From NCBI GenBank assembly GCA_024036415.1, contig JAMWET010000166.1, forward strand, positions 1-64,000: DNA of 64,000 nucleotides. The letters are read 5' to 3'. The notes under the pieces were generated by a model that saw only the letters and a list, made by a program, of their open reading frames with translations, was not told the DNA's origin and ran no database searches. This document shows positions 1 to 44,579 of this stretch, piece by piece (the first letter of the stretch is position 1; each line of letters starts with the position of its first letter). Made by a program: the position numbers and the translations under genes. The stretch comes from Prochilodus magdalenae (Eukaryota > Chordata > Actinopteri > Characiformes > Prochilodontidae).

Positions 1-979
1 GAGAATAATTATTTCACTGTAAAACATCTACTATTATCATATTATACATTCTTAATACAGCGTCATATATTTTATATCCACAGCATTTTTCAGTCATATT
101 TCACTATACTAGATAGTTATATTCACTTATTATTTAGTCAGTAAGGGACATTTCTTCTGATCACTACAGACTCATCAGTGGAAGATGTGCTGTGACTCCT
201 TCATTGTTTAATACAATATTTGAACATGAACTATTTAAAACTCTACACACAATATACATACCCAAAAACCAGTAAAATAGAGAGAAACACTAAAGGTACA
301 GGATTCTCTTTATACAGCTCCAGAAAGTCTGTTTCTTTTTGAGGGCTGATATATTTGATGTCTTGTTGTTGGGGATCTATTATGTGGTATGAACAGTCTC
401 CAGTGCAGTCAGTGGTAGGATGGTAATGATAGAGGTGAAGGTGAACAACTCAGACCAACGCAGTTTACATCTTACTTTCTATCTTTGGATCTAAGATATT
501 TTTACTTATTCTCTCCATTATTAATATTTTTATTTAGTTTAATCTGATGACATTCTCTTATTTCTGAGAGATAATTATGAGGTTAAAATATGTGTAATTG
601 GGTTGAGTATTAGGGACTCTATCCTAAAGCTGGACTTCTGAACTGTTACACTGATTAATCTGTTAGTCTTTACATTCAGTTCACTCATTACTCTTCATTT
701 CAGCTCATGTTCTTTATTCAATTCATTAAAGTGTCATAATTCAAATTTTATCAGTTTATTAAATATGTATTTAATGTATCGTGTTCTCTGTTGCTGCTAT
801 ATATATGCTAATAATAGTTTATATTTTTGGTTAATCTTTTAGATACTATATCAGTTAATCTGTCTGTTTTATCTGTAAAGTATCTGATGTTAACTGCTGC
901 AGAAAAACAATCTTCTCTCATTTATTATTAATAAGCATAATAAATAATTTATTACTGATGATAAAGAAGCTTAATGTAA
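1..979. other. AT-rich non-coding, outer left arm
   Basis: I see no gene or recognisable element here beyond the palindrome pairing with roughly 19.95-20.85 kb. Confidence 0.6.
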
Positions 980-1760
980 AGTGTTTACTAGTCAATTTCT
1001 ATATCAGTGTTGTGAGTTTCTGCTGTAGGTTTAACCGTGTAGCTGAACATCTTTCATGGAGTTGTACTGAGAGCGTTGAGTGAACAGTGCAGTAGTGAGG
1101 GATGATAAACTACAGTACAGATGAGAAAAAGGAGATTTCTGATTAAGGAGATAAAGAGCTGAAAAGATTGTTTTTTTAGTTTCTAACTGTAGAAAAGTAT
1201 CTCATGGATATTTCTCTACAACTCTGTGTTTCCTTCTGTTTCTATTCTACAGACATTTGAGGTAAGTAAAATAAGTTATTTTATTCTTTCACTGCTGGTT
1301 AAACGACTGATTTAACACACCCATCACATACATTACACTCTGATACAGACGTTCTGAACACACACATCATATTGTACTTCAGTTCATATTCACACCATCA
1401 ACAAGTCTCTGATATCAGAATCATCACTTCCTGATCACCTCCATCTCCCTCCTTCCTTCCCACAATGCTCCTGTGCATACAAACCCACTGCACTGCAGAA
1501 ATGTAGAGACAGTGAAGTTTACTGAGGAGAAAAAAGACACTACAAATAAAAGCAGTCTGGACTCTGTTGGGAGTGATGTCACTGTTCCTATGGGATGATG
1601 GGATATTTGAGGTGTTCCATTATCAGTACATCATTATCATTAGAGTGTCCTCTCATTACTGTAGCTCTCCTCTCCTCCGTTACTGAACACAGCCCTGAAC
1701 ACTCATACAGCAGGAGCTTTCTGACACACTCACACACACACTATCTGCCTGTTTGGATGA
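980..1760 (+). repeat. Signal-exon cassette, left-arm copy
   Basis: The segment pairs with 19150-19920 in the right arm and resembles 23178-23950 and 26705-27310. Shared parts are the putative 5' UTR, the short hydrophobic exon, its GTAAGTAAA donor and about 500 bp of the following intron. It is one of four copies in the window. Confidence 0.85.
1204..1261 (+). pseudogene. Hydrophobic leader exon, left-arm copy (frameshifted)
   Basis: The exon begins with ATG-GAT-ATT-TCT-CTA like the three other copies and ends at a GTAAGT donor. A CA insertion after codon 5 shifts the frame away from the hydrophobic leader, and the exon end ACATTTGAG differs from the CACGGCCG form at 23.7 kb. It lies upstream of the left GIMAP copy on the same strand. 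As it stands it cannot encode the signal peptide. Confidence 0.5.
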
Positions 1761-2872
1761 GTCTCTATATCAGTGACTCACAACAAGCAGCACATAAATG
1801 AAGAGTCAGGCAGCACTGAAGACCTGGATTACTGAGATCCTCTCATCTCCTGCACTTCCCTTCAGTTCCAGTGTTCTAGATCATATGTGTACATTGGTAC
1901 AATCATTTCTGAACATTTTCATGTAGAGTAGATTAGATGTTCTAAATGAAACTGATCTGAGTTTTCTGAAAGTGATCAGTCTTAGTGAATACGAGCCAAC
2001 TAATGCAGGAACTTCAGAAAAGAAGGAGTCAGTTTCAGCGAGTGTTTTCCCAAAGAGCTATACAAATCCAATACTTAACAATTAAACTTCAAAGAACGAC
2101 TTTGCTGACTCCGCCCCCCGAAACAGCTCTCAGCTCAAACCTGAAACATTGATCGGCTCAGTCCAGATATACAGTATATATTCACTAGACACTTGAAAAA
2201 CAGAACTGTGTTCATATCAGTGTAATTATACAGAATCTGAAAAATGACGGTCAGAGGGATCATAGGCTCAGAGGGAATCCTTCATGTAGTGAATAACAAG
2301 CAGGCCGGGTCACTCTCCTTTATTAACCACCAGTCTTAAGTTATAGAGGTAGGCAGGACAGTTTAACACCTGGACCCTTTAACACTGCACTTGTAAGAAA
2401 TAGTGATGAGCAGATAATGGTGGTTGTGTAGTGTTTCCTGAACGCATGCAGTTTCACTATTTCACTATTTCACTATTATTTTTAATATATTAACATAATA
2501 AGATTTTCTTCTTTAGAAGTCACATGATCATTTGTGTTTCATTACACATGAGCTCAAGCTTCACTTCTACAGTCTGTAATAAGAGAGGAGAGAGTGCAGA
2601 GAGAGGAGTGTAAGACAGACTGAAATAGAGAGGAGTGTTTTTTTTTTCATGAATGATGGTTTTTCATTAACACAGTAAAATATTGTGGTGTTGAGTCTCT
2701 CTGTGTTCAGTTGGGAATTATAACACATACACAGTAAGATATGAGCTGATTATGTTTTTCACTGCTCCCCAGTTTATAATCAGCCACAGAGACACACAGA
2801 TCATCCAATCAATGTTCCAGAAATAGATGATGTTCATCATGTTTGTTCACTACTCTGTTTTTTCTCTCCCAG
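1761..2872. other. Intron-like or intergenic sequence, left arm
   Basis: No reading frame of note. It separates the leader exon from the first small GIMAP exon, and its partner in the right arm is about 18.07-19.15 kb. An intron is the simplest reading. Confidence 0.5.
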
Positions 2873-5800
2873 GTGTTCTATGTCCAGCAGGTGAGTTCAC
2901 TGATATTAATGTATATTAATTATTAATGAAGTATTGTTTCTGCTCAGTACCAGTATAATGTTTCTAAACACTGTTATAATCAGCTCTCAGTGATCAATAC
3001 TGACACACCAACCATCATGAAATCATCACACTGTCTTATTCACTTCTACAGAGAAACAGAAAATGGGGCAGAAGAGGAGAGAATAAAGATGAAGGACTCT
3101 GTTCTGCTGACTGGTGAGGTTTAAAGGAGATACAAAATCAGTGACAGTCAAACCTGTTAAATAAAAACTGTTAAATTGTAATGTCCTGCGCATTTCTGTA
3201 AACCATCTTTGTTTTTAATATAGTGAATTAATCAGTTATTAATAATGTAATAATGTTACAGTGCAAGTTAAAAAAACTATCATATTTCATATTTACAGTC
3301 TTATTTTCAGGTCACTGCTACAGTGTTAGAGACTTCTTGCTATCATGCTGTTCTGGTAAAGACAGATTGGTGGTTTGGACTATTGTAGATATGTTATGGC
3401 AGATGCTGCAGAGGAGCTACAAATACTCTAAGGTCTTTAGGATCTGCTGTTGGGTACTAGACTGAAAGGTTCAGCTTCTTCTGCTGTTTCTGTACTGCAG
3501 TTCCTGATCCTGATCACCAGCAGTCCCTGAGTTTTATGGGACATATGATCAGTTATATATGAATCAGTGTGCTGCTCAGTTGTGTCCTGAATGTTAATGA
3601 ATGTGTTTTCTTACAGACAGTTATCTGGACTGTCTGAACTTCTTAAAGACAAAGAGAGCATTTTACTGGAGACAAATACTCAACTGATGAAGAAAGACAA
3701 ACTAATCCAAGAAAAAAAGAAAAACTTTCTGATTAAAAACACAGAGACTCTTCAGATGAAGGAGAAGATGCTGGAAGAGAGAGAGAAACTTCTTCAGGAG
3801 ACGAAAGACAAACTAGAACAAAATGACCAAAGAATCTGAGATGAATCAGAAACAGCTTAAAGATAAAGACACACAACTGAAGAATCAGATCAAACTGCTG
3901 AGAGAGAAAGAGACTCTACTGGAGGACGCAGTGAAAGAGGTGGACAGCAGTAAAGAGCAGCTGGACACACTGAGAAAGGAACTGCAGGACAAGAGAGCAG
4001 CAAAACTACAGGAGATGATGATCCTACTGGAACAACAGAAAACTGAACTGAGGGGAAAAGACAAACAGCTTGAAGAGAAGGAGAAACTTCTAAGTGAGAG
4101 AAACACACAGCTAATGGAAAGAGAGAAGCAGATGAAGGAGAAAGACAGACTTCTAGAGGAGAGAAACAAGCAGCTGGAGGCAAGAACAGATCCAGACTCA
4201 TCAGTTCCAGCCAGGAGAAGAAACAGTAAAGAGATGAATCCTCCAGAATGTAAGTAAATACTAAAGTTACATGAAGTTACAAACAATAAAATAAAAATAC
4301 TACACATTTTCACATATTTGTTACTATCTCATACTCAAATTAATATATCATAATCTATAGTCTTAACAGTAATTAATAATTAGGTGAGAACAACTATTGC
4401 ACAGCAGAACATTAAACTCATATAGAGATTTCATACTATATACCATCTACAAACTGCTCAATAACAGTCTTAATTATATGTGGTTCTTCTGTTTCATAGT
4501 GAGTGGAGAGACTCCAGAATCTGCAGCACCACTCAGGAGAAGAGGCAGTAAAGACGGACTTCCTCCATTCCGTAAATAATTTCAGCTTCATATAATATCT
4601 TCTACATTTCTCTGAGCAGAATAATCATCAGCATATATTAAGAGATTAAATCCTCATTCTTGTTGATCTGCAGTGAGTGGAGAATCCTGTAGTTCAGCCT
4701 CTCCAGTGTCAGTTCCTGTAGCAGAACTCCGGCTGGTGCTGCTGGGGAGGACTGGATGTGGGAAGAGTGCAGCAGGAAACACCATCCTGGGCAGAGAGGA
4801 CAGGAGCCAGGCTGGAGAGTCTACAGTGAGGCAGCAGAGTGAGAGCAGACAAGGGGAGGCAGCTGGGAGGCAGGTGACTGTGGTGGACACTCCAGACTGG
4901 TTCGGTCCTGGACTCTCTCTCTGGAGGAGCTGAGACAGGACGTGGGACAGTGTGTCCGTCTGTCTGCCCCAGGACCCCACGCCTTCCTCCTAGTCATACC
5001 AGTGAAGCAGTCTACAGGAGAGGAGAGAGGGATGCTGGAGAAAATGGAGGAGATCTTTGGAGAGAGATGTTGGAGGAACACCATGATCCTTTTCACTGTT
5101 ACTGATGAAGTCCAAGAGAAGAACATTGAAGAGTTTATCCAGTCAGGAAACCAGGAGATCCAGAGACTTGTAGAGAAATGTGGGAACAGGTTTCACTGTC
5201 TCAACATTAAGGAGAGTGGAGATGGTTCTCAAACCTCAGAGCTGCTGGAGAAGATAGAGAAGATGGTGGAAGGAAACAGAGAGGAGTTCTATAGCAGTGA
5301 GATCTACCTGGAGACAGAATCTCAGATCAGAGAGATAGAGAGAAGAATTGTGGGAGAAAGAGAGGAGATGAAAGAAAGAGAAACTAGAGAGAAACTAGAG
5401 AGATGTGTAGAGGAGACTTTCATAAAGTTTACAGAATCAACTGCTCACTTTCATACCAAACTAAATCAGCATGAAGAACGAATAACTAAACTAGAGGAAA
5501 TGCTGAAAGAGGAAAGAGATGAGAAGAGAAAGGTAGAACTGGAGGGAGAGGTGGAGAGAGAGATTCAGCAGAAGAATGAGGTTCAGTTGGAGTTAGAGAG
5601 ACTGAAAGAAGAGACTGAAAACGAGAGGAGTGAGATGGAGGAGAGACACAGACAGGAGATGGAGGAGATCAGGGAGGTGTATGAAGGAGAAGCCAGAATG
5701 GAGGCAGAGAGAAAGCTCATGAAGATCCTCCTGCCTGAACTCCAGCAGAGAGTCTGGGAACTTCTTTGACAAAGAAACAGACAAAGATTTTGATTGTAGG

Positions 5801-5986
5801 ATAGATGAAAAGGAGAGAGAGATAGAGACACTGAGACGGAGACTCAGAGAGGGGTTCAGAGAGGAGATCACAGCAGGAGGAGATGATCATCAGGAGGACA
5901 CTAGAGGAAGGTTTAGCAGGTTAACACAGCTGCTGTTCTGGGGAACACTCAGTGATCCAGTTATAATCACTCGGTCAGATCAGTGA
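2873..5986 (+). pseudogene. GIMAP-like AIG1 GTPase gene, left-arm copy, frameshifted
   Basis: The exons match the right-arm gene in order: 2873-2890, 3052-3113, about 3617-4249 (coiled coil), 4500-4571, and 4674-5986 (AIG1 domain plus C-terminal coil). Splice sites are kept. The reading frame is broken many times: an extra G in the second exon (3060s), extra bases in the coil exon near 3716, 3822 and 4000, an extra CT in a CT run near 4918 just after the DTPD motif, and a change near 5766 that creates an early stop in place of the ELLTKK stretch. Nearly all breaks are short insertions relative to the right arm. Either this copy is a decayed duplicate or it is the noisy half of a chimeric assembly. 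The P-loop (GxxGxGKS type) remains. Confidence 0.85.
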
Positions 5987-6166
5987 GAGCTTCCTAACTG
6001 ACTTTCAGCCACAGCAGATCTACTGAAACAGTAGCAGCTGATAGAGGCAATACTACACCGTCACTGTATTTCATATTACAGTTATTATACGGTATATGAC
6101 CGTATTACTGCAGCGTTACTGTATTTCTGTATTTATGGTTTATGTATAATTCAGAAACAATTGTAT

Positions 6167-6172
6167 AATAAA
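6167..6172 (+). promoter_or_regulatory. Poly(A) signal of left GIMAP copy
   Basis: AATAAA lies about 180 bp after the stop at 5984-5986, a normal 3' UTR distance. Its mirror copy is at 14787-14792. Confidence 0.6.
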
Positions 6173-6189
6173 AGCTGTATATGAGTGAG

Positions 6190-6480
6190 ATTGCTGCAGT
6201 CACATTTCTCTTTATCGTCACTGTAAAACATGAATAGATTATCTTTCATCTACCCACTCATTCCATTTTTCATTCCATAAATTAGATCTACATCATCTAC
6301 AAAACATATTCTGTAATAATTCAGTTATGAACAGTTTCTGTTATAGGACTTTTACATGTTCTGTGTATCATAGTTTTATGCGACCAGCGGCGGTATGTAC
6401 ACGTTGGCATAGAGACAGTATTAATGATGAAATGGATTATAATAAGAGGAGAGCTTTATCAGTGTTGGTTGTTTATTTAA
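6190..6480. other. Non-coding sequence after the left GIMAP copy
   Basis: I see no gene or repeat family here. It pairs with about 14.48-14.77 kb. Confidence 0.4.
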
Positions 6481-6840
6481 GGTGAAAACCTTAACAGATG
6501 TTCCAGAAAGATGTTCTGTACTATGTTATGTCTTTATTTTATTACAGTGGAGTTTGATAATGAAATGTTTGGTGTTCGTGGCTCCCAAACAATCAACATC
6601 TGGTTTATATCAGCATGTGGTCCACAGCAAACCTCCTGATGGAACGTTCCTCTTATCACTGCTGCTGGAGGTGGTAGAATTAAAACCTATGGAAAAAAGG
6701 GGAGGAGCCCAAAATACTACTGATTCTTACTGAGTCCAGATTTAAACCCTATAGAGAATATTTACTCTCACATTAAACACAAACTAGTTTGAGTGCTTTT
6801 CAGCTGTTGCTGAGTGGTTCTCCTTCCTGTATTAGACCGT
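6481..6840 (+). mobile_element. Tc1-like transposase C-terminal relic (left arm)
   Basis: One frame carries the Tc1/mariner signature SPDLNPIEN (from about 6733), preceded by WSLIM and followed by a short C-terminal stretch. Stops and frame breaks interrupt it, and no terminal inverted repeat is visible. It is a decayed fragment and not an active element. The right-arm copy is at 14120-14480, so the insertion predates the palindrome. Confidence 0.7.
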
Positions 6841-6944
6841 CTGCATGTCTGTAAGTTCACCCACAAAACTTCATACTAACTTTCTGTTTCTGTAATGATT
6901 TGCTGTTAAGATCTTTACAAGCTATTTCAGGTTTTGCCCTTTCA

Positions 6945-7445
6945 TATACAAGTGTGACGATGGACAAACAGATTGTGACGCGCTGAACTAAAAGCAAGGC
7001 ACAGTTTATTAAACAGGTTTGTACTAAAACACAACAACACCAAGAACAAGGAGATACAATCAGAGGGCTAAACTGAGTCAGAGTCAGTAAACAGGCAGGA
7101 GTCAAACCAAGCAGACAATCAGACCAGGCAGAGGTACCAGAGGGAATAAACTAGAGGAGTAAACCAGAGTCAAAATAGAGTCAAAGCCAGAGTAACACAA
7201 GATCAAACAGAGAGAGAACGCTCGGTAAGCTACAGAGTGGCAATACTTTACAATGAGCCAGTATTTAAACTAACAGACTAAACAATGTCAGGTGACTAAT
7301 CAATATTCAGGAGATCGAAAATGAGGCAATGAGGTGTGATTGGGCAAGGACGGACATGTGACATCAGGTGGTGGGTTATGGGAAATGGAGTCCAGGAGAT
7401 CGGAGGTGAGAGGAGAACCAGCAGGCAACAATGATCACTCGTTTA
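6945..7445 (-). mobile_element. LTR-like fragment (left arm)
   Basis: Read on the minus strand, the segment is T-rich with repeated CTGACTC/TTTGACTC phrases and a poly(A) signal (TTTAATAAACTG) close to its end, the build of fish Gypsy-type LTRs. I could not define TG...CA ends with a target duplication, so the family and boundaries are unsure. The mirror copy is at 13520-14015 on the plus strand. Confidence 0.45.
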
Positions 7446-8099
7446 TCAGTTAATGCTTAGACTGTTGGTGCACTTTTTTTGTCCCTTCTAGATTAAACAC
7501 AGACATTTAAAGCTTGTAAAAGACGTTTATATGTTTTATTAAATGTATAACAAACATTATCATATATTTTATCCTGTACGCTTCAGTTTTACAGGCCTGA
7601 CATGGAGCTGCCACCACTGTTTCACATCTCTAACAACTGACTGAAACATGCACTACTGCTCATGTTCACACTCAGTGATGTATCTAGAACCTCCAGAAAG
7701 CTGAGAGTGACATTTCCTCCTCTCCAAACGGATCCCACCCTTAATCATTCCATTGTCAGTTCCTTATTATGTTGGTGGTTAGTCTGAAGCAGTAGGCCTT
7801 CAGTCCAGCTCCTGAACGTCTACCCAGTGGAGGAGCTCGACTCGCTGTTCATACCTAGAACCAATGGAGAAAACTAAAACCCAGTCTGGACAGATTTCTG
7901 TTGGTGGTTTCAAGATAAGAATAATAAATAAGACAGTATTATTAAAATACTCACAGATTAAGAGTTTAATACAAGGAGCCTGATGATTTTATTACATACA
8001 AATGAATATAAAATATGAGCATATAAATTATAGTATATAATCACCATATAGTGTATCAGTGATGTGGCTGTCATGACTACCAGAGTGAAGAGTAGAGTG
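7446..8099. other. Non-coding, left arm
   Basis: No gene is visible. It pairs with 12.87-13.52 kb. Confidence 0.4.
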
Positions 8100-8490
8100 C
8101 GATCATCTTCAGCTCTTCTTCCCTCCCTGATCAGATCACTGTGTGGAGGGAAGAACAGAGAGAGCAGAGATCAGAACTGCTTCACCTCCTGCCTGTAATC
8201 ACTGATTCAGGATCAGCTCTCAGGACTGCAGTGAAGGTGGAGCAGCATGTTAGAGATGGAGGTTATGTGAGCAGCTCCAGTCGCTGCTGCACTACATGGA
8301 GCATGTACAGCTTCATGCAGCCTCTGGCTGGAAACAGCAGCTGATGCCTGAGCTTGTTCAGTTTGATCAGAGTGCAGTGTGGAAAGATAATCAGATCCCT
8401 CCTGTTCAGAGAGAATCACACAGAGAGGAGGAGAGAGAGGCTGGAGTGCTAGAGAGGAGAGCAGGAGCGCTGAATGTTTATTAATGATGT
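8100..8490 (+). repeat. Conserved GIMAP-associated block, left-arm copy
   Basis: This block recurs at 12460-12870 (mirror) and at 62420-62800 beside the third GIMAP gene, always on the 3' side of the GIMAP gene in the same orientation. In the sense strand one frame of about 65 codons (8141-8344) stays open in all three copies. I do not recognise the peptide. It could be a 3' UTR or a terminal exon of an alternative transcript. Confidence 0.6.
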
Positions 8491-9129
8491 TTATGATGTT
8501 TATGATCTTCAGTGGTAAGTTGTTTAAGACTGTGATTATATAGGCATATAGATTCTAGATTCACAGATTAAAACTGAGCCTGAATAAACACATACTGATG
8601 AGAGAATGCTGACCTCTGTTCTCTTCATCGCCGCTGGAGGACAGTGGGCTCTTATCTCTGATAGACGTACAGCTGTATGTGCTCTGTGGAGTTACGTTTG
8701 CTGTGATGGTGCTTGGTGGCTGGCCGCTGCCTAACTCTGTCCACTTGCCTTGTCACCTCACAGCATCCATTTCATTTCAACAGACCACTGAGGTCGGGTC
8801 ATAATTTGTGGTTGTTATATGTTTTTTCACATGGTAAATAATGAATGGGGGTTCTCAAAAAATCGCCTCCATTACATTCTGTGGTAAATAAATATGTTCA
8901 GAACTCCATACGTTGTTCTGTGCATGTTTTCCTCTTGTACATCACTGGTCCTCCGAAATACAAACTCGTTAAATAGTCAAATATGAAAATTGCTACATGT
9001 AACCTAATGCTGCAGTGCACGGTATTAACATCAGCCTCCTTAAAACCATGCAAGCAGCTCGTTTTCCCAGTGTGTGTCTGAGGTCCACTGACGTATACAC
9101 ATTTAGTCTGCTTTAAAGGAGAGACTTGG
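8491..9129. other. Non-coding between the GIMAP-linked block and the retroelement, left arm
   Basis: No gene recognised; it may contain the untranslated leader or LTR of the adjoining retroelement. It pairs with about 11.82-12.46 kb. Confidence 0.35.
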
Positions 9130-10380
9130 CAACCGACTGAGCAGCAAATGTACATCCTTATAATATTCTTATTGAGCTACTGGGAGAGGAAGAAAACCCG
9201 AGGGCCTGTGTGTCAAGAGCCCACCAAGTGTAGAAGAATATCACAGGAAAGGACCCAGATCTGAATTTAGATGGAGCAGTCAATTTTAAGACACAAAATA
9301 CAGACGGGGCTGCCCCTACCAGTGAGGAGCAAACTGGCAGAGGTGGTTGGTGTATTTGGATCATATAGCCCACCAGGTGGAGCTATACAGGAAGAAGGAA
9401 CATGATCAGAAAGAACAAGACCAAGAGACTCTCAGGAAACTTAATCAGATACAGCTGGTGGATAGCAAGAAGAAGGAGACGAAGCAGGCACTGGTCATAC
9501 AGTGTCAGTCTCCACCAAATCAACCATTGTCACAACCGCAGCCAAGTTAAGTTCAGCTTCAGCCATCCCAGCCATCACTGGTGGTACCAGTTGTTTCTTA
9601 CCCACAGTCAGTTTTTTTTGGTCAAGTGCAGACCTGGAGGAGGAAGAGGTCGAGGAAGTATAGGACGAGGAAGAGGAGGAAAATTCCAACAGTCCTTAGA
9701 AGCGTGCTATACTTGTGGACAGTTTGGTCACTTTGCTCGTGAGTGCAACATGCCAGGAGGAAACTTCAGAGGAAACTTCAGAGAAGGATTTAGGGGTCAA
9801 CCAAGGTCATCTGGTGGACCGGTGAACTCTTTCAGGGGCCCGGAGCCAGAATTTTAGGGGTGCCCAGAGAATCTGAGAGGGGGTGTCAGCTGGTAGCATC
9901 AGGGGCTAGAGAGAGATCCAACCAATCGAGGTGAAAACACAAATAATCAGTCATTGGAAAGTGATGATGGATAGCGGAGCTATGCTTTCACCTGTATTCG
10001 CCTGAAGATGCTATACATCTTCCCCTGCAGGCCAATGGATTCGGACAATCAGGTTTGAGGAAGTGCACCAGCTGATTCCTCTAACGAAACCAGCTGAGCT
10101 CTGCTATAAAAATCAGAAAACCACACAATACCCATACTGGTATCAGACCATACACCTATTGCACTCTTGGGAAGAAGATGATTTTGGCAGACTGAACTGT
10201 ACAATAAAAGTGCACAACGGGACGGCTGTCAATTCTTGATGACAACGGAGAACTGAAGCTTCTGAAGTATTTGGATTTGGAAATCTTAAGTGCAAAATTT
10301 CTGGAACCAGCCAAGTTGTAGGAGAAGTTTATTGTGGTAACCATGCCTGATGCAAAAGCACCCAGAGTATCCCTTCCACT
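9130..10380 (+). mobile_element. Retroelement gag-protease fragment (left arm), broken
   Basis: The plus strand carries a charged and glutamine/proline-rich gag-like segment (about 9347-9550), then a Gly/Arg-rich nucleocapsid region with one CCHC zinc knuckle (C-X2-C-X4-H-X4-C, about 9709-9750). An aspartic protease region follows, with the DSG active-site triplet (about 9970) and a later LLGR-type motif. Frames change repeatedly through small indels and stops. Reverse transcriptase, RNase H and integrase are absent because the palindrome tip interrupts the element. The family is a retrovirus-like or Gypsy-like LTR element; I cannot decide which. Confidence 0.75.
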
Positions 10381-10488
10381 GTACGCTTAAGTATTTCAAA
10401 GAAATGCTGTTTCCCAATCGAACTAGAAATGGTTGAGTCGTCAACCAAAGCAAGTTTTCAAACTTCGTTCATTGCTGCATAGCTTTCT

Positions 10489-10500
10489 GGGACCACAAGG
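10489..10500. other. Palindrome spacer (loop of the inverted repeat)
   Basis: Twelve unpaired bases (GGGACCACAAGG) separate the arms. The inner arm ends are AGCTTTCT on the left and AGAAGCT on the right. Such a short loop in a 10 kb-armed palindrome is typical of fold-back duplication or of a long-read hairpin chimera. It does not resemble the common SMRTbell adapter sequence as I remember it. Confidence 0.9.
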
Positions 10501-10599
10501 AGAAGCTATGCAGCATGAACGAAGTTGAACTTGCTTTGGTTGACGACTCAACCATTCCTAGTTCGATAGGGCAGCATTCTTGAAATACTTAAGCGTACA

Positions 10600-11830
10600 G
10601 TGGAAGGGATACTCTGGGTGCTTTGCATCAGGCATGTTACCACAATAAACTTCTCCTACAACTTGGCTGGTTCCAGAAATTTTGCACTAAGATTTCCAAT
10701 CCAAAATACTTCAGAAGCTTCAGTCTCCGTTGTCATCAAGAATTGACAGCCGTCCGGTGTGCACTTTATTGTACAGTTCAGTCTGCCCAAATCATCTCTT
10801 CCCAAGAGTGCAATAGGTGTATGGTCTGATACCAGTATGGGTATTGTGGTTTTCTGATTTTTATAGCAGAGCTCAGCTGGTTTCGTTAGAGGAATCAGCT
10901 GGTGCACTTCCTCAAACCTGATTGTCCGAATCCATTGGCCTGCATGGGGAGATGTATAGCATCTTCAGGCCGAATACAGGTGAAAGCAGCTCCGCTATCC
11001 ATCATCACTTCCAATGACTGATTATTTGTTTTCACCTCGATTGTTGGATCTCTCTCTAGCCCTGATGCTACCAGCTGACAACACCCTCAGGTTTTCTGGG
11101 CACCACTAAAATCCTGGCTCCGGGCCCCTGAAAGGGTTTACCGGTCCGCCTTGGTTGGCCCCTGAATGCTCCTCTGAAGTTTCCTCTGAAGTTTCCTCCT
11201 GGCATGTTGTACTCACAAACAAAGTGACCAAACTGTCCACAAGTATAGCACGCTTCTAAGGACTGTTGGAATTTTCCTCCTCTTCCTCGTCCTATACTTC
11301 CTCAACCTCTTCCTCTCCAGGTCTGCACTTGACCAAAAACTGACTGTGGGTAAGAAACAACTGGTACCACCGGTGATGGCTGGGATGGCTGAGGCTGAAC
11401 TTAACTTGGCTGCGGTTGTGACAATGGTTGGTTTGGTGGAGACTGACTCTTTATGACTAGTGCCTGCTTTTTCTCCTTCCTCTTGTTATCCACCAGCTGT
11501 ATCTGATCAAGTTTCCTGAGAGTCTCTTCGTCTTGTTCTTTCTGATCATGTTCCTTCTTCCTGTATAGCTCCACCTGGTGGGCTATATGATCCAAATACA
11601 CCAACCACCTCTGCCAGTTTGCTCCTCACTGGTAGGGGCAGCCCTGTCTGTATTTTGTGTCTTAAAATTGACTGCTTCATCTAAATTTAGATCCAGGTCC
11701 TTTCCTGTGATATTCTTCTACACTTTCTGGGCTCTTGACACACAGGCCCTCGGGTTTTCTTCCTCTCCCAGTAGCTCAATAAGAATATTATCAGGATGTA
11801 CATTTGCTGCTCAGTTGGTTGCCAAGTCTC
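10600..11830 (-). mobile_element. Retroelement gag-protease fragment (right arm), broken
   Basis: This is the mirror copy of 9130-10380 on the minus strand. The gag-like segment (11401-11604) is followed by the nucleocapsid stretch, where the zinc knuckle is altered, and by an open protease tail (10656-10907). It still has frame breaks between gag and protease and has lost all pol enzymes downstream. It is inactive. Confidence 0.75.
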
Positions 11831-12459
11831 TCCTTTAAAGCAGACTAAATGTGTATACGTCAGTGGACCTCAGACACACACTGGGAAAACGAGCTGCTTG
11901 CATGGTTTTAAGGAGGCTGATGTCAATACCGTGCACAGTAGCATTAGGTTACATGTAGCAATGTTCATATTTCGACTATTAACGAGTTTGTATTTCGGAG
12001 GATCCAGTGATGTACAAGAGGAAAACATGCACAGAATAACGTATGGAGTTCTGAACATATTTATTTACCACAGAGCGTAATGGAGGCTATTTTTTGAGAA
12101 CCCCATTCATTTTTACCATTGAAAAACATACAACCACAAATTATGACCCGACCTCAGTGGTCTGTTGAAATGAAATGGATGCTGTAAGGTGACAAGGCAA
12201 GTGGACAGAGTTAGGCAGCGGCCAGCCACCAAGCACCATCACAGCAAACGTAACTCCACAGAGCACATACAGCTGTACGTCTATCAGAGATAAGAGCCCA
12301 CTGTCCTCCAGCGGCGATGAAGAGAACAGAGCTCAGCATTCTCTCATCAGTATGTGTTTATTCAGGCTCAGTTTTAATCTGTGAATCTAGAATCTATATG
12401 CCTATATAATCACAGTCTTAAACAACTTACCACTGAAGATCATAAACATCATAAACATC

Positions 12460-12870
12460 ATTAATAAACATTCAGCGCTCCTGCTCTCCTCTCTAGCACT
12501 CCAGCCTCTCTCTCCTCCTCTCTGTGTGATTCTCTCTGAACAGGAGGGATCTGATTATCTTTCCACACTGCACTCTGATCAACCTGAACAAGCTCAGGCA
12601 TCAGCTGCTGTTTCCAGCCAGAGGCTGCATGAAGCTGTACATGCTCCATGTGGTGCAGCAGCGACTGGAGCTGCTCACATAACCTCCATCTCTAACATGC
12701 TGCTCCACCTTCACTGCAGTCCTGAGAGCTGATCCTGAATCAGTGATTACAGGCAGGAGGTGAAGCAGTTCTGATCTCTGCTCTCTCTGTTCTTCCTTCC
12801 ACACAGTGATCTGATCAGGGAGGGAAGAAGAGCTGAAGATGATCGCACTCTACTCTTCACTCTGGTAGTC
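12460..12870 (-). repeat. Conserved GIMAP-associated block, right-arm copy
   Basis: Mirror of 8100-8490, with the sense frame at 12601-12804 on the minus strand. It lies 2.1 kb beyond the stop of the right GIMAP gene. In the third locus the same block begins only about 150 bp beyond the stop, so the extra distance here is explained by inserted elements at 13.5-14.5 kb. Confidence 0.6.
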
Positions 12871-13519
12871 ATGACAGCCACATCACTGATACACTATATG
12901 GTGATTATATACTATAATTTATATGCTCATATTTTATATTCATTTGTATGTAATAAAATCATCAGGCTCCTTGTATTAAACTCCTAATCTGGGAGTATTT
13001 TAATAATACTGTCTTATTTATTATTCTTATCTTGAAACCACCAACAGAAATTTGTCCAGACTGGCTTTTAGTTTTCTCCATTGGTTCTAGGTATGAACAG
13101 CGAGTCGAGCTCCTCCACTGGGTAGACGTCCAGGAGCTGGACTGAAGGCCTAATGCCTCAGACTAACCACCAACATAATAAAGAACTGACAATGGAATGA
13201 TTAAGGGTGGGATCCGTTTGGAGAGGAGGAAATGTCACTCTCAGCTTTCTGGAGGTTCTAGATACATCACTGAGTGTGAACATGAGCAGTAGTGTATGTT
13301 TCAGTCAGTTGTTAGAGATGTGAAACAGTGGAGGCAGCTCCATGTCAGGCCTCTTAACTGAAAGAGTGTAAAACTGAAGCGAACAGGATAAAATATATGA
13401 TAATGTTTGTTATACATTTAATAAAACATATAAACGTCTTTTACAAGCTTTAAATGTCTGGGTTTAATCTAGAAGCGACAAAACAAAGTGCACCAACAGT
13501 CTAAGCATTAACTGATAAA
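12871..13519. other. Non-coding, right arm
   Basis: Pairs with 7446-8099; no gene seen. Confidence 0.4.
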
Positions 13520-14015
13520 CGAGTGATCATTGTTGCCTGCTGGTTCTCCTCTCACCTCCGATCTCCTGGACTCCATTTCCCATAACCCACCACCTGATGT
13601 CATGTGTCCATCCTTGCCCAACCACACCTCATTGCCTCATTTTTGATCTCCTGAATATTGATTAGTCACCTGACATCGTTTAGTCTGTTAGTTTAAATAC
13701 TGGCTCATTGTAGAGTACAGCCACTCTGTAGCTTACCGAGCGTTCTCTCTCTGTTTGATCTTGTGTTACTGTGGCTTTGACTCTATTTTGACTCTGGTTT
13801 ACTCCTCTTGTTTATTCCCTCTGGTACCTCTGCCTGGTCTGATTGTCTGCTTGGTTTGACTCCTGCCTGTTTACTGACTCTGACTCAGTGTAGCCCTCTG
13901 ATTGTATCTCCTTGTTCTTGGTGTTGCTGTGTTTTAGTACAAACCTGTTTAATAAACTGTGCCTTGCTTTTAGTTCAGCGCGTCACAATCTGTTTGTCCA
14001 TCGTCACACTTGTAT
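13520..14015 (+). mobile_element. LTR-like fragment (right arm)
   Basis: Mirror of 6945-7445. TTTAATAAACTG (about 13948) supplies a poly(A) signal near the end, as in an LTR R-U5 border. Termini and target duplication are not clear to me. Confidence 0.45.
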
Positions 14016-14119
14016 ATGAAAGGGCAAAACCTGAAATAGCTTGTAAAGATCTTAACAGCAAATCATTACAGAAACAGAAAGTTAGTATGAAGTTTTGTGG
14101 GTGAACTTACAGACATGCA

Positions 14120-14480
14120 GACGGTCTACTACAGGAAGGAGAACCACTCAGCAACAGCGGAAAAGCACTCAAACTAGTTTGTGTTTAATGTGAGAGTAAA
14201 TATTCTCTATAGGGTTTAAATCTGGACTCAGTAAGAATCAGTAGTATTTTGGGCTCCCTCCCTTTTTTCCATAGGTTTTAATTCTACCACCTCCAGCAGC
14301 AGTGATAAGAGGAACGTTCCATCAGGAGGTTTGCTGTGGACCACATGCTGATATAAACCAGATGTTGATTGTTTGGGAGCCACGAACACCAAACATTTCA
14401 TTATCAAACTCCACTGTAATAAAATAAAGACATAACATAGTACAGAACATCTTTCTGGAACATCTGTTAAGGTTTTCACC
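14120..14480 (-). mobile_element. Tc1-like transposase C-terminal relic (right arm)
   Basis: Mirror of 6481-6840, with the SPDLNPIEN signature near 14230-14205 on the minus strand. It is truncated and without visible terminal repeats. It lies in the 3' flank of the right GIMAP gene. Confidence 0.7.
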
Positions 14481-14786
14481 TTAAATAAACAACCAACACT
14501 GATAAAGCTCTCCTCTTATTATAATCCATTTCATCATTAATACTGTCTCTATGCCAACGTGTACATATCGCCGCTGGTCGCGTAAAACTATGATACACAG
14601 AACATGTAAAAGTCCTATAACAGAAACTGTTCCTAACTGAATTATTACAGAATATGTTTTGTAGATGATGTAGATCTAATTTATGGAATGAAAAATGGAA
14701 TGAGTGGGAATGAAAGATAATCTATTCATGTTTTACAGTGACGATAAAGAGAAATGTGACTGCAGCAATCTCACTCATATACAGCT

Positions 14787-14792
14787 TTTATT
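14787..14792 (-). promoter_or_regulatory. Poly(A) signal of right GIMAP gene
   Basis: AATAAA on the minus strand about 180 bp beyond the stop codon of the AIG1 exon. Confidence 0.6.
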
Positions 14793-14972
14793 ATACAATT
14801 GTTTCTGAATTATACATAAACCATAAATACAGAAATACATTAACGCTGCAGTGATACGGTCATATACCGTATAATAACTGTAATATGAAATACAGTGACG
14901 GTGTAGTATTGCCTCTATCAGCTGCTACTGATTCAGTAGATCTGCTGTGGCTGAAAGTCAGTTAGGAAGCTC

Positions 14973-17888
14973 TCACTGATCTGACCGAGTGATTATAACC
15001 GGATCACTGAGTGTTCCCCAAAACAGCAGCTGTGTTAACCTGCTAAACCATCCTCTAGTGTCCTCCTGATGATCATCTCCTCCTGCTGTGATCTCCTCTC
15101 TGAACCCCTCTCTGAGTCTCCGTCTCAGTGTCTCTATCTCTCTCTCCTTTTCATCCATCCTACAATCAAAATCTTTCTGTTTCTTTGTCAGAAGTTCCCA
15201 GATTCTCTGCTGGAGTTCAGGCAGGAGGATCTTCATGAGCTTTCTCTCTGCCTCCATTCTGGCTTCTCCTTCATACACCTCCCTGATCTCCTCCATCTCC
15301 TGTCTGTGTCTCTCCTCCATCTCACTCCTCTCGTTTTCAGTCTCTTCTTTCAGTCTCTCTAACTCCAACTGAACCTCATTCTTCTGCTGAATCTCTCTCT
15401 CCACCTCTCCCTCCAGTTCTACCTTTCTCTTCTCATCTCTTTCCTCTTTCAGCATTTCCTCTAGTTTAGTTATTCGTTCTTCATGCTGATTTAGTTTGGT
15501 ATGAAAGTGAGCAGTTGATTCTGTAAACTTTATGAAAGTCTCCTCTACACATCTCTCTAGTTTCTCTCTAGTTTCTCTTTCTTTCATCTCCTCTCTTTCT
15601 CCCACAATTCTTCTCTCTATCTCTCTGATCTGAGATTCTGTCTCCAGGTAGATCTCACTGCTATAGAACTCCTCTCTGTTTCCTTCCACCATCTTCTCTA
15701 TCTTCTCCAGCAGCTCTGAGGTTTGAGAACCATCTCCACTCTCCTTAATGTTGAGACAGTGAAACCTGTTCCCACATTTCTCTACAAGTCTCTGGATCTC
15801 CTGGTTTCCTGACTGGATAAACTCTTCAATGTTCTTCTCTTGGACTTCATCAGTAACAGTGAAAAGGATCATGGTGTTCCTCCAACATCTCTCTCCAAAG
15901 ATCTCCTCCATTTTCTCCAGCATCCCTCTCTCCTCTCCTGTAGACTGCTTCACTGGTATGACTAGGAGGAAGGCGTGGGGTCCTGGGGCAGACAGACGGA
16001 CACACTGTCCCACGTCCTGTCTCAGCTCCTCCAGAGAGAGTCCAGGACCGAACCAGTCTGGAGTGTCCACCACAGTCACCTGCCTCCCAGCTGCCTCCCC
16101 TTGTCTGCTCTCACTCTGCTGCCTCACTGTAGACTCTCCAGCCTGGCTCCTGTCCTCTCTGCCCAGGATGGTGTTTCCTGCTGCACTCTTCCCACATCCA
16201 GTCCTCCCCAGCAGCACCAGCCGGAGTTCTGCTACAGGAACTGACACTGGAGAGGCTGAACTACAGGATTCTCCACTCACTGCAGATCAACAAGAATGAG
16301 GATTTAATCTCTTATTATATGCTGATGATTATTCTGCTCAGAGAAATGTAGAAGATATTATATGAAGCTGAAATTATTTACGGAATGGAGGAAGTCCGTC
16401 TTTACTGCCTCTTCTCCTGAGTGGTGCTGCAGATTCTGGAGTCTCTCCACTCACTATGAAACAGAAGAACCACATATAATTAAGACTGTTATTGAGCAGT
16501 TTGTAGATGGTATATAGTATGAAATCTCTATATGAGTTTAATGTTCTGCTGTGCAATAGTTGTTCTCACCTAATTATTAATTACTGTTAAGACTATAGAT
16601 TATGATATATTAATTTGAGTATGAGATAGTAACAAATATGTAAAATGTGTAGTATTTTTATTTTATTGTTTGTAACTTCATGTAACTTTAGTATTTACTT
16701 ACATTCTGGAGGATTCATCTCTTTACTGTTTCTTCTCCTGGCTGGAACTGATGAGTCTGGATCTGTTCTTGCCTCCAGCTGCTTGTTTCTCTCCTCTAGA
16801 AGTCTGTCTTTCTCCTTCATCTGCTTCTCTCTTTCCATTAGCTGTGTGTTTCTCTCACTTAGAAGTTTCTCCTTCTCTTCAAGCTGTTTGTCTTTTCCCC
16901 TCAGTTCAGTTTTCTGTTGTTCCAGTAGGATCATCATCTCCTGTAGTTTGCTGCTCTTGTCCTGCAGTTCCTTTCTCAGTGTGTCCAGCTGCTCTTTACT
17001 GCTGTCCACCTCTTTCACTGCGTCCTCCAGTAGAGTCTCTTTCTCTCTCAGCAGTTTGATCTGATTCTTCAGTTGTGTGTCTTTATCTTTAAGCTGTTTC
17101 TGATTCATCTCAGATTCTTTGGTCATTTGTTCTAGTTTGTCTTTCGTCTCCTGAAGAAGTTTCTCTCTCTCTTCCAGCATCTTCTCCTTCATCTGAAGAG
17201 TCTCTGTGTTTTTAATCAGAAGTTTTTCTTTTTCTTGGATTAGTTTGTCTTTCTTCATCAGTTGAGTATTTGTCTCCAGTAAAATGCTCTCTTTGTCTTT
17301 AAGAAGTTCAGACAGTCCAGATAACTCTGTAAGAAACACATTCATTAACATTCAGGACACAACTGAGCAGCACACTGATTCATATATAACTGATCATATG
17401 TCCCATAAAACTCAGGGACTGCTGGTGATCAGGATCAGGAACTGCAGTACAGAACAGCAGAAGAAGCTGAACCTTTCAGTCTAGTACCCAACAGCAGATC
17501 CTAAAGACCTTAGAGTATTTGTAGCTCCTCTGCAGCATCTGCCATAACATATCTACAATAGTCCAAACCACCAATCTGTCTTTACCAGAACAGCATGATA
17601 GCAAGAAGTCTCTAACACTGTAGCAGTGACCTGAAAATAAGACTGTAAATATGAAATATGATAGTTTTTTTAACTTGCACTGTAACATTATTACATTATT
17701 AATAACTGATTAATTCACTATATTAAAAACAAAGATGGTTTACAGAAATGCGCAGGACATTACAATTTAACAGTTTTTATTTAACAGGTTTGACTGTCAC
17801 TGATTTTGTATCTCCTTTAAACCTCACCAGTCAGCAGAACAGAGTCCTTCATCTTTATTCTCTCCTCTTCTGCCCATTTTCTGTTTCT
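14973..17888 (-). CDS. GIMAP-like AIG1 GTPase with N- and C-terminal coiled coils (spliced)
   Basis: GIMAP proteins are lymphocyte GTPases that assemble on membranes; this is a fish member. I read four joined coding exons on the minus strand: 17888-17828, 17326-16703, 16453-16382 and 16279-14973. All junctions are AG/GT and the phases agree (G|AG, T|TG, C|TG). Exon 2 (about 208 codons) is nearly pure heptad coiled coil with EKEKLL/LLEERNKQL repeats. Exon 3 is a short Ser/Arg linker. Exon 4 (435 codons) holds the AIG1 domain: P-loop GRTGCGKS at residues 25-32, DTPDWF at 72-77 and the AIG1 box around 91-140, followed by a second long coiled coil (about 205-400). The expected guanine-specificity motif reads TVTD (141-144), which is unusual. 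The start is unsure: an ATG lies in the first exon, and an 18-nt exon at 18066-18049 is also in phase. Total about 690 residues. Confidence 0.85.
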
Positions 17889-18048
17889 CTGTAGAAGTGA
17901 ATAAGACAGTGTGATGATTTCATGATGGTTGGTGTGTCAGTATTGATCACTGAGAGCTGATATAACAGTGTTTAGAAACATTATACTGGTACTGAGCAGA
18001 ACAATACTTCATTAATAATTTAATATACATTAATATCAGTGAACTCAC

Positions 18049-18066
18049 CTGCTGGACATAGAACAC
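18049..18066 (-). other. 18-nt candidate exon upstream of right GIMAP
   Basis: A pyrimidine tract and CCCCAG acceptor precede GTGTTCTATGTCCAGCAG, followed by a GTGAGT donor. Read in phase 0 it gives VFYVQQ and continues openly into the 17888-17828 exon; the other two phases run into stops downstream. The left arm keeps both splice sites (2873-2890). Confidence 0.5.
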
Positions 18067-19149
18067 CTGGGGAGGAAAAACAGAGTAGTGAACAAACATG
18101 ATGAACATCATCTATTTCTGGAACATTGATTGGATGATCTGTGTGTCTCTGTGGCTGATTATAAACTGGGGAGCAGTGAAAAACATTAATCAGCTCATAT
18201 CTTACTGTGTATGTGTTATAATTCCCAACTGAACACAGAGAGACTCAACACCACAATATTTTACTGTGTTAATGAAACCATCATTCATGAAAAAACACTC
18301 CTCTCTATTTCAGTCTGTCTTACACTCCTCTCTCTGCACTCTCTCCTCTCTTATTACAGACTGTAGAAGTGAAGCTTGAGCTCATGTGTAATGAAACACA
18401 AATGATCATGTGACTTTCTAAAGAAGAAAATCTTATATGTTAATATATTAAAAATAATAGTGAAATAGTGAAATAGTGAAACTGCATGCGTTCAGGAACA
18501 CTACACAACACCATTATCTGCTCATCACTATTTCTACAAGTGCAGTGTTAAAGGGTCCAGGTGTTAAACTGTCCTGCCTACCTCTATAACTTAAGACTGG
18601 TGGTTAATAAAGGAGAGTGACCCGGCCTGCTTGTTATTCACTACATGAAGGATCCCTCTGAGCCTATGATCCCTCTGACCGTCATTTTCAGATTCTGTAT
18701 AATTACACTGATATGAACACAGTTCTGTTTTTCAAGTGTCTAGTGAATATATACTGTATATCTGACTGAGCCGATCAATGTTTCAGGTTTGACTGAGAGC
18801 TGTTCGGGGGGCGGAGTCAGCAAAGTCGTTCTTTAAGTTAATTTGTTAAGTTTGGATTTGTATAGCTCTTTGGGAAACACTCGCTGAACTGACTCCTTCT
18901 TTTCTGAAGTCCTGCATTAGTTGGCTCGTTATTCACTAAGACTGATCACTTTCAGAAAACTCAGATCAGTTCATTTAGAACATCTAATCTACTCTACATG
19001 AAATGTTCAGAAATGATTGTACATGTACACATATGATCTAGAACACTGGAACTGAAGGGAAGTGCAGGAGATGAGAGGATCTCAGTAATCAGGTCTTCAG
19101 TGCTGCTGACTCTTCATTATGTGCTGCTTGTTGTGAGTCACTGATATAG
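18067..19149. other. Intron-like sequence, right arm
   Basis: Pairs with about 1761-2872; no coding signal. Confidence 0.4.
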
Positions 19150-19920
19150 AGACTCATCCAAACAGGCAGATAGTGTGTGTGAGTGTGTCAGAAGCTCCTG
19201 CTGTATGAGTGTTCAGGGCTGTGTTCAGTAACGGAGGAGAGGAGAGCTACAGTAATGAGAGACACTCTAATGATAATGATGTACTGATAATGGAACACCT
19301 CAAATATCCCATCATCCCATAGGAACAGTGACATCACTCCCAACAGAGTCCAGACTGCTTTTATTTGTAGTGTCTTTTTCTCCTCAGTAAACTTCACTGT
19401 CTCTACATTTCTGCAGTGCAGTGGGTTTATGCACAGGAGCATTGTGGGAAGGAAGGAGGGAGATGGAGGTGATCAGGAAGTGATGATTCTGATATCAGAG
19501 ACTTTGTTGATGGTGTGAATATGAACTGAAGTACAATATGATGTGTGTGTTAGACGTCTGTATCAGAGTGTAATGTATGTGATGGGTGTGTAAATCAGTC
19601 GTTTACCAGCAGTGAAAGAATAAATACACTTATTTACTTACCTCAATGTCTGTAGAATAGAAACAGAAGGAAACACAGAGTTAGAGAAATATCCATGAGA
19701 TACTTTTCTACAGTTAGAAACTAAATAAACAATCTTTTCAGCTCTTTATCTCCTTATCAGAAATCTCCTTTTCTCATCTGTACTGTAGTTTATCATCCCT
19801 CACTACTGCACTGTCACTCAACGCTCTCAGTACAACTCCATGAAGATGTTCAGCTACACGGTTAAACCTACAGCAGAAACTCAACACTGATAGAAATGAC
19901 TAGTAACACTTTACATTAAG
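19150..19920 (-). repeat. Signal-exon cassette, copy A
   Basis: Closely resembles 23178-23950 and 26705-27310 on the same strand, and mirrors 980-1760. It carries the leader exon (19696-19642) and the conserved intron segment with a recurring 80-100 codon frame. Confidence 0.85.
19642..19696 (-). pseudogene. Hydrophobic leader exon, copy A (ends in stop)
   Basis: From the ATG the exon reads a hydrophobic leader like copies B and C, but the exon end is ACATTGAG instead of CACGGCCG or TATGGCTG. This gives an in-frame TGA one codon before the GTAAG donor. It therefore cannot supply a signal peptide to the GIMAP exons below it unless splicing differs. It may serve only as 5' UTR. Confidence 0.45.
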
Positions 19921-21049
19921 CTTCTTTATCATCAGTAATAAATTATTTATTATGCTTTATTAATAATAAATGAGAGAAGATGTTTTTCTGCAGTAGTTAA
20001 CATCAGATACATTTACAGATTAAACAGACAGATTAACTGATATAGTATCTAAAAGATTAACCAAAATTATAAACTATTATTAACATATATATAGCAGCAA
20101 CAGAGAACAGATACATTAAATACATATTTAATAAACTGATAAAATTTGAATTATGACACTTAATGAATGAATAAAGAACATGAGCTGAATGAAGAGTAAT
20201 GAGTGAACTGAATGTAAAGACTAACAGATTAATCAGTGTAACAGTCAGAAGTCCAGCTTTAGGATAGAGTCCTAATACTCAACCCAATTAACATATTAAC
20301 TCATAATATCTCTCAGAAATAAGAGAATGTCATCAGATTAAACTAAATAAAATATTAATAATGGAGAGAATAAGTAAAATATCTTAGATCAAAGATAGAA
20401 AGTAAGATGTAACTGCGTTGGTCTGAGTTGTTCACCTTCCTCTATCATTACCATCCTACACTGACTGCACTGGAGACTGTTCATACCACATAATAGATCC
20501 CCAACAACAAGACATCAAATATATCAGCCCTCAAAAAGAACACAGACTTTCTGGAGCTGTATAAAGATGAATCTGTACCTTTAGTGTTTCTCTATTTACT
20601 GGTTTTCTGGGTGTATATTGTGTGTAGAGTTAAATAGTTCATGTTCAAATATGATTAAACAATGAAGGAGTCACAGCACATCTGTCACTGTTCTGTAGTG
20701 ATCAGACAGAACTGTCCTTACTGACTAAAATAATAATGAAATATTACTACAGTAATAGTGAAATATGACTGAAATGCTGTGATATAAATATATGAAGCTG
20801 TATTAAGAATGTATAAATATGATACTAGTAGATTTACAGTGAAATATTATTCTCAGTGTTTGTTTATACACTGTAATAATAGTTTATCAGTTCAACATTA
20901 AAACATAAACATTTCATGAGGTAACAAACAATGCACCTGCTTTATTCAGCTGTAATAAATCCTCTTTTGACTTTTTGAATGGCATTTCTGAACAACAAAA
21001 TAGCTTTATATTAGTAATTTAGTATTTGTATATGTAATTAGTAATTATA
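19921..21049. other. AT-rich non-coding, palindrome outer end and beyond
   Basis: No gene. The palindrome pairing ends at 20854 because of the window edge, so whether 20855-21049 is also mirrored cannot be seen. Confidence 0.5.
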
Positions 21050-23177: not shown

Positions 23178-23950
23178 GAGACTCATACCAACAGGCAGAT
23201 AGTGTGTGTGAGTGTGCAGAAGCTCCTGCTGTGTGAGCAGGGCTGTGTTCAGTAACGGAGGAGAGGAGAACTACAGTAATGAGAGACACTCTAATGATAA
23301 TGATGTACTGATGATGGAACACCTCAAATATCCCATCATCCCATAGGAACAGTGACATCACTCCCAACAGAGTCCAGACTGCTTTTATTTGTAGTGTCTT
23401 TTTCTCCTCAGTCAACTTCACTGTCTCTACATTTCTGCAGTGCAGTGGGATTATGCGCAGGAGCATTGTGGGAAGGAAGGAGGGAGATGGAGATGATCAG
23501 CAAGTGATGATTCTGAGATCAGAGACTTTGTTGATGGTGTGAATATGAACTGAAGTACAATATGATGTGTGTGTTAGACGTCTGTATCAGAGTGTAATGT
23601 ACGGGATGAGTGTGTAAATCAGTCGTTTACCAGCAGTGAAAGAATAAATACATTTATTTACTTACCGGCCGTGCTGTAGAATAGAAACAGAAGGAAACAC
23701 AAAGTTAGAGAAATATCCATGAGATACTTTTCTACAGTTAGAAACTAAATAAACAATCTTTTCAGCTCTTTATCTCCTTATCAGAAATCTCCTTTTCTCA
23801 TCTGTACTGTAGTTTATCATCCCATCACTGCACTGTCACTCAACGCTCTCAGTACAACTCCATGAAGATGTTCAGCTACACGGTTAAACCTACAGCAGAA
23901 ACTCAACACTGATAGAAATGACTAGTAACACTTTACATTAAGCTGATACT
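23178..23950 (-). repeat. Signal-exon cassette, copy B
   Basis: Same layout as copies A and C. Further weak similarity to the sequence beyond copy A continues to about 24.35 kb, so the duplicated unit may have been longer. Confidence 0.85.
23666..23720 (-). CDS. Signal-peptide-like first exon, copy B
   Basis: ATG opens an 18-codon leader, MDISLTLCFLLFLFYSTA, ending one base into a Gly codon at a GTAAG donor (phase 1). A short polar start, hydrophobic core and small residues at the end fit a secretory signal peptide. Phase-1 exit is the rule for exons preceding Ig domains. No Ig exon is visible between here and the next cassette, so what it splices to is unknown. It could alternatively be read as a membrane segment, but an upstream acceptor in that frame creates a stop. 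Confidence 0.5.
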
Positions 23951-26704: not shown

Positions 26705-27310
26705 TCACATATCCCATCATCCCATAGGAACAGTGACATCACTCCCAACAGAGTCCCGACTGCTTTTATTTGTAGTGTCTTTTTCTCCTCAGTAAACTTC
26801 ACTGTCTCTACATTTCTGCAGTGCAGTGGGATTATGCACAGGAGCATTGTGGGAAGGAAGGAGGGAGATGGAGGTGATCAGGAAGTGATGATTCTGAGAT
26901 CAGAGACTTTGTTGATGGTGTGAATATGAACTGAAGTACAATATGATGTGTGTGTTAGACGTCTGTATCAGAGTGTAATGTATGTGATGAGTGTGTAAAT
27001 CAGTCGTTTACCAGCAGTGAAAGAATAAATACACTTATTTACTTACCAGCCATACTGTAGAATAGAAACAGAAGGAAACACAAAGTTAGAGAAATATCCA
27101 TGAGATACTTTTCTACAGTTAGAAACTAAATAAACAATCTTTTCAGCTCTTTATCTCCTTATCAGAAATCCCTTTCTCATCTGTACTGTAGTTTATCATC
27201 CCTCACTACTGCACTGTCACTCAGTGCTCTCAGTACAACTCCATGAAGATGTTCAGCTACACGGTTAAACCTACAGCAGAAACTCAACACTGATAGAAAT
27301 GACTGGTAAC
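26705..27310 (-). repeat. Signal-exon cassette, copy C
   Basis: Third copy on this strand. It is shorter at its downstream end than A and B: similarity begins at the CATATCCCATCATCCC stretch. Confidence 0.85.
27047..27101 (-). CDS. Signal-peptide-like first exon, copy C
   Basis: Reads MDISLTLCFLLFLFYSMA then G at a GTAAG donor, phase 1, identical to copy B except for T-to-M at residue 17. It lies downstream of the Ig V exon on the same strand, so it cannot be that exon's leader in a simple gene. It would be the first exon of a separate transcript whose next exon is not visible. Confidence 0.5.
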
Positions 27311-27663
27311 AGATTATAATACATTTCTTAAATAAACTTGTACGAATGTTTAAAAATGTAATGGAATATTTTGAATATCAGTGACAGAATATGTATTACG
27401 CTTCTTTATTAGTGAATGATCATAAGAAGGAATTGATCTTTCCTGCAGTAGTTAACATCAGATAAACACCAGTACAGATACACAGACAGATTACTACTAG
27501 TTAACTGATATTAACTAAAAGGTTAACTGATATAATAACTGTTACATAAATGATTGAGAAACTGGATGTTTTGTATTATCCTGCTCCATTAACGAATAAT
27601 TAATATCAGCTAAATTAAATCTGTTATCTATTGTTTATGTAGAGTAAACTTCTGGATACTTAC
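27311..27663. other. Non-coding between cassette C and the Ig exon
   Basis: AT-rich; no exon seen. Confidence 0.4.
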
Positions 27664-27987
27664 ACACTCCTACTGTACACTCCTCTGTTGTGTCTCCATT
27701 GGTGACCTGACACAGATAATCTCCTCTATCTGACTCTGTGCAGTCTCTGATCTGTAAGAAGATGTTTCCTCTCTGCAGCTCCTCAGTGAGCAGACTCACT
27801 CTGCCCTCGTAGCCCCTCCCCTCTGTCACCTGCCTGTTCTTATAGAGACAAACACAGTCCGTCCCCTTAAACCACCTGATCTCCATGGTAACAGTACTGA
27901 GTTCAGGAGACAGGTGACAGGAGAGAGTGACCACAGGGCCATATTGACACTCTTCATTTCCACGTGGTCCAGTGAGTGTAAAGAGCT
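27664..27987 (-). CDS. Ig V-set domain exon, butyrophilin/MOG-like
   Basis: A single 324-nt exon, phase 1 at both ends, with a TTTCTACACAG acceptor and a GTAAGTATCC donor. It encodes one V-set domain: first cysteine in VTLSCHL, tryptophan in IRWFK, and DRGDYLCQV for the second cysteine. The CVCLY and GRGYEGRVSL stretches are familiar from fish butyrophilin/MOG/B7-like receptors, which are cell-surface proteins that modulate lymphocytes. The leader exon is not adjacent: upstream lie a (GA)n tract and a LINE. No transmembrane exon follows that I can identify, since the nearby leader-like exon would give TAA at the junction. It is probably part of a larger or broken gene. Confidence 0.75.

Positions 27988-42362: not shown

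Positions 42363-44579
<2,217 letters not shown>

Follow-up and report, generated by a model that had tools for sequence, protein, structure and literature searches.

A 21-kb palindrome carrying a GIMAP gene in the Prochilodus magdalenae assembly is probably one locus written twice

The 21-kb palindrome that opens contig JAMWET010000166.1 of the Prochilodus magdalenae assembly GCA_024036415.1 is very probably an artefact, in which a fold-back read or an assembly error doubled a single GIMAP locus. Our analysis covered the first 64,000 nucleotides of this contig (hereafter the window), and the features discussed are listed in Table 1. In a self-BLASTN search of the window, positions 1-20854 aligned to their own inverse (20854-1) as a single alignment with 96.947% identity, a value into which every difference between the arms enters twice. 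When the halves were cut in the middle of the loop, arm A (left) measured 10494 nt and arm B 10360 nt, a length difference of 134 nt. Mirror arms reaching up to a very small centre are expected of a fold-back, and were found here with a centre of 12 bp and 96.3% identity over 10521 aligned columns, the half-loops being left unmatched. This alignment contained 115 indel events and 203 substituted columns, part of which adjoin indels, so that isolated substitutions, defined by a distance of >6 bp to every other event, were tallied separately. The arm length, loop size, difference of a few percent and tail-to-tail order given in the original prediction were all recovered by the self-BLASTN and the arm alignment, as was pairing as far as the window edge: the alignment begins at base 1, and the outer boundary of the repeat is out of view. 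After the palindrome, the largest inverted matches in the window spanned about 1.1 kb for GIMAP copies and 0.8 kb for a dispersed repeat, and a chance origin of the palindrome is ruled out by its 10-kb match length. The fold sits inside a decayed retroelement stretch (8800-12200), where stop codons are numerous in every frame of each arm.

Table 1. Features of the palindrome, with positions in the window.
Feature	Position	Strand	Remarks
Arm A	1..10488	+	noisy arm; extra bases dense at about 1-3000 and 9600-10488
Dispersed repeat, arm A copy	985..1610	+	other copies 19300-19908, 23324-23930, 26705-27311
Same GIMAP gene as in arm B, frameshifted	about 3591..5983	+	arm A; pieces in different frames
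Retroelement gag-like fragment, zf-CCHC	9369..9857	+	arm A, near fold
Unpaired centre, GGGACCACAAGG	10489..10500	.	12 bp; SMRTbell adapter not found
Arm B	10501..20854	-	clean arm; runs on into remainder of window
GIMAP (AIG1) GTPase exon, open, 437 aa	14973..16286	-	arm B
Coiled-coil-like exon, same GIMAP gene, open, 218 aa	16695..17351	-	arm B

Differences of the type produced by sequencing error were concentrated in one arm, as a fold-back artefact would have it. Extra bases lay in arm A in 102 of the 115 indel events and in arm B in 13 (p 2.7e-18), amounting to 161 extra bases in arm A versus 27 in arm B, and 56 of the 68 one-base extras in arm A duplicated an adjacent base. The dispersed repeat, with one copy in each arm and two outside the palindrome, allowed these differences to be polarized. 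In the four-copy comparison, the arm A copy was alone in 20 insertions, 3 deletions, and 8 substitutions, and the arm B copy in 0, 0, and 1, while the copies at 23324-23930 and 26705-27311 had 0, 2, and 9 and 0, 2, and 6, respectively. Set against the same two outside copies, arm A gave indel events of 19 v 1 and 14 v 1, and arm B 3 v 0 and 1 v 0. Given that the repeat pairs not involving arm A were balanced (1 v 1, 1 v 2, and 2 v 2, with no one-sided excess), the extra-base noise is a property of arm A and not of the window generally. Similarly, in a comparison of the GIMAP part with the diverged copy at 62913-64000, 4 inserted bases and 2 substitutions were confined to arm A, and none to arm B. 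At 8105-8494, a third copy sided with A against B at all 3 A/B differences. Third copies give the polarity for about 2 of the 10.4 kb, and for the remainder it would follow from the pattern being one-sided there too; close to the tip, deletions in B are in principle an alternative source of the asymmetry.

The same arm also held the broken gene. The open GTPase exon of arm B matched PF04548 with 172.9 bits (E 7.6e-51), and a 308-aa piece from arm A matched it with 105.1 bits, against a Pfam cut-off of 27 in both cases. A Pfam search gave no match for the coiled-coil-like exon, which aligned with residues 6-217 of the fish protein P0001 and 1-215 of P0002, each of which spans both arm B exons within one protein. 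The original prediction had placed a GIMAP gene on each arm; the gene is indeed present in both, with its exons open in arm B alone and frameshifted in arm A. Its frame breaks in arm A lie near 3821, at 4915-4921, and at 5766-5783, and the extra bases of arm A at 3820, 4913, 5765, and 5781 mark these very sites. For the GTPase exon of arm A, two frames were required by 115 of 120 homologous proteins and one frame by 5, while in arm B a single frame sufficed for all 112 proteins that matched inside the set bounds, the other 8 of the 120 having no match there. A true palindrome would be expected to have equally accurate arms, whereas the indel, four-copy, and frame comparisons all found arm A to be the less accurate one.

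GIMAP/AIG1 GTPases of characiform fish, including those of P. magdalenae and Colossoma macropomum, share with the arm B gene both the AIG1 domain and the upstream coiled-coil-like exon. P. magdalenae contributed 9 of the first 20 GIMAP matches, and Colossoma, Metynnis, Acnodon, and Pygocentrus were among the sources of the others. The three best P. magdalenae proteins were 90-91% identical to the arm B protein, and among the matches listed no protein was near-identical to it, the best whole-length identity being 91% and the best partial identity 93%.

Several further features were observed in the window. A third GIMAP copy, diverged and partial, lies at 62953-63900 (-), oriented like arm B, and a fragment at 51047-51191 (-) resembles the C-terminus of GIMAP (residues 631-678 of P0001), with 139 bp matched by DNA too. 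An immunoglobulin V-set exon at 27635-28063 (-) has a translation 85% identical to the start of the GIMAP-like protein P0105, and V-set domains are present in several fish GIMAP proteins among the matches listed. The window also contains a tandem array at 54706-55324 (50-bp unit, 12.4 copies, 97% matches), an ORF at 42363-43304 (-) whose nine C2H2 zinc-finger stretches lie in an array of 84-bp repeats and which gave generic database matches only, and transposon pieces at 29122-29718 (-; endonuclease/exonuclease domain) and 58393-58785 (+; DDE_Tnp_4). Scans of the window returned 0 Rfam and 0 tRNA hits.

The differences between the arms were distributed in zones. Extra-base events were dense in A 0-3000 (67, 22 per kb) and in A 9550-10500 (21, 22 per kb), and sparse in between, with 8 in A 3000-5700 and 6 in A 5700-9550. 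Isolated substitutions in A 0-3000, 3000-5700, 5700-9550, and 9550-10500 reached 2.3, 0.4, 12.5, and 9.5 per kb, respectively. A 5700-9550 held 85 substitutions (48 isolated) and 9 indel events in all, and its transitions and transversions stood at 49:36 versus 27:38 in A 0-3000. The inner half of the arms is thus a region of clean differences, allele-like or paralogue-like, and the clean substitution level of roughly 1% between 5.7 kb and the tip suggests that in this part the arms represent different alleles. A plain fold-back would leave no such divergence, and one molecule simply read twice does not explain the clean differences of A 5700-9550 (about 12 isolated substitutions per kb) unless alleles or paralogues are involved; an artefact therefore requires that alleles, or else paralogues, were mixed in. 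For the P. magdalenae assembly, the available text of its description gives 8.87 million SNVs with a transition:transversion ratio of 1.44 (PMC9893009).

We consider it most plausible that the assembler either built on a long read that folds back on itself, through a strand switch or because a hairpin adapter was missed, or joined two reads of the same locus at the tip in opposite orientation. Arm B and all sequence rightward of it would then be the real locus, and arm A an under-corrected mirror copy, with two alleles (or close paralogues) probably glued together and landing on separate arms in the inner half. Raw CLR reads are much noisier than the residual ~2% of arm A, so that arm A would be an under-corrected consensus rather than a single raw read, and an error profile this rich in insertions suggests PacBio CLR as the platform. 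The published account of the assembly, as far as its text was available, reports PacBio RSII data at 17.6x with a mean read length of 9230 bp, processed with DBG2OLC, Racon, and NextPolish (PMC9893009), and such data would fit this insertion-rich error. Slow-down of nanopore sequencing in inverted repeats is not favoured as a source of error: according to the abridged text of PMC7229812, it predicts missed or wrong calls, but arm A shows insertions where further copies allow a comparison.

Artefacts of this kind, as portrayed in parts of three sources (PMC12870357, PMC6218980, PMC6304105), consist of a sequence followed by its reverse complement with a tiny gap or none, so that a locus is doubled, as in the palindrome described here. 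The kinds compared were missed SMRTbell adapters, strand jumps, and WGA chimeras. Missed SMRTbell adapters are said to yield the same read structure as fold-backs (PMC6218980, in excerpt), and a paper on a reptile assembly counts both missed adapters and strand jumps of the polymerase as faults of PacBio reads (PMC6304105, in the portion available). In the accessible sections of one survey, a spacer of >11 bp between the halves is typically found in less than half of fold-back reads, those with little between the halves are known mostly from nanopore data, and three PacBio sets had no systemic fold-backs, old CLR data apparently not being included (PMC12870357). Unlike these read artefacts, the palindrome occurs in assembled sequence, lacks an adapter, and has clean substitutions in part of one arm.

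The tip was compared with the SMRTbell adapter sequence. No remnant of it was found there, the edit distance at the tip being 20 of 45 versus 15-16 reached by chance in 20855-64000. A missed adapter is accordingly disfavoured, and a strand switch or a misjoin becomes likelier.

It is improbable, by our assessment, that the palindrome instead represents a real germline fold-back duplication of the GIMAP locus, segregating or fixed and tolerated by the germ line, with a 12-bp centre and two convergent genes. Conversion would then have kept the outer 5.7 kb alike while the proximal part diverged by about 1%, and arm A would merely be under-polished, its reads having been placed on arm B. The near-identity of the arms at 3.0-5.7 kb, followed by clean substitutions from 5.7 kb to the tip, does have the look of a conversion boundary, and fish GIMAP genes are often multi-copy, as illustrated by the third copy at 62953-63900 and by the many P. 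magdalenae and Colossoma paralogues. However, this duplication would require one-sided error up to the fold, and the indel asymmetry does extend right up to it: in A 9600-10494, 39 extra bases lay in A versus 1 in B. If reads spanned the tip of a true palindrome, both sides of the fold should have been corrected equally, while strong noise on one flank of the fold with hardly any on the other is consistent with an arm backed by few reads of its own. Base 1 presumably lies at or near a contig end, and in a true palindrome low coverage at such an end could likewise have left the outer 3 kb noisy, although it accounts poorly for the noise at the fold with a cleaner stretch between.

Known in-vivo events also differ from the structure observed here. 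In-vivo fold-back inverted duplications likewise have a small unpaired centre between inverted copies, but at the human junctions described in the consulted part of PMC3907307 the spacer measured 766-70466 bp (21 of 21 sequenced), compared to 12 bp here. In yeast, following the available passages of PMC8053094, inverted repeats with no or short spacers raise gross rearrangements >10000-fold, which speaks against such a palindrome, and an inverted repeat with a 12-bp spacer gives rise to hairpin-capped breaks. A literature search on GIMAP inverted clusters and long palindromes returned background only.

Less probable still is that two real GIMAP copies, lying some distance apart in opposite orientation, lost their true spacer in an assembly collapse: the clean divergence near the tip and the further GIMAP pieces within the window would agree with such a pair, but collapse should leave an asymmetric join, whereas here the two sides pair until only the 12-bp centre is left between them.

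Of the two readings offered by the original prediction, an artefact of the hairpin or fold-back kind is thus favoured by the one-arm indels, the broken gene, and the asymmetry up to the fold, and a real duplication is disfavoured; arm-to-arm gene conversion, which it had also proposed, is not needed to explain the similarity of the arms.

Should the structure be real, a vertebrate germ line would harbour a long palindrome whose centre is unusually small. If it is an artefact, as we consider very probable, the one-sided indel test applied here would offer a cheap filter for similar cases that needs no reads. The GIMAP copy number of P. magdalenae would then be inflated by one broken copy in this assembly, and studies of gene-family growth or of palindromes that build on it would be misled.
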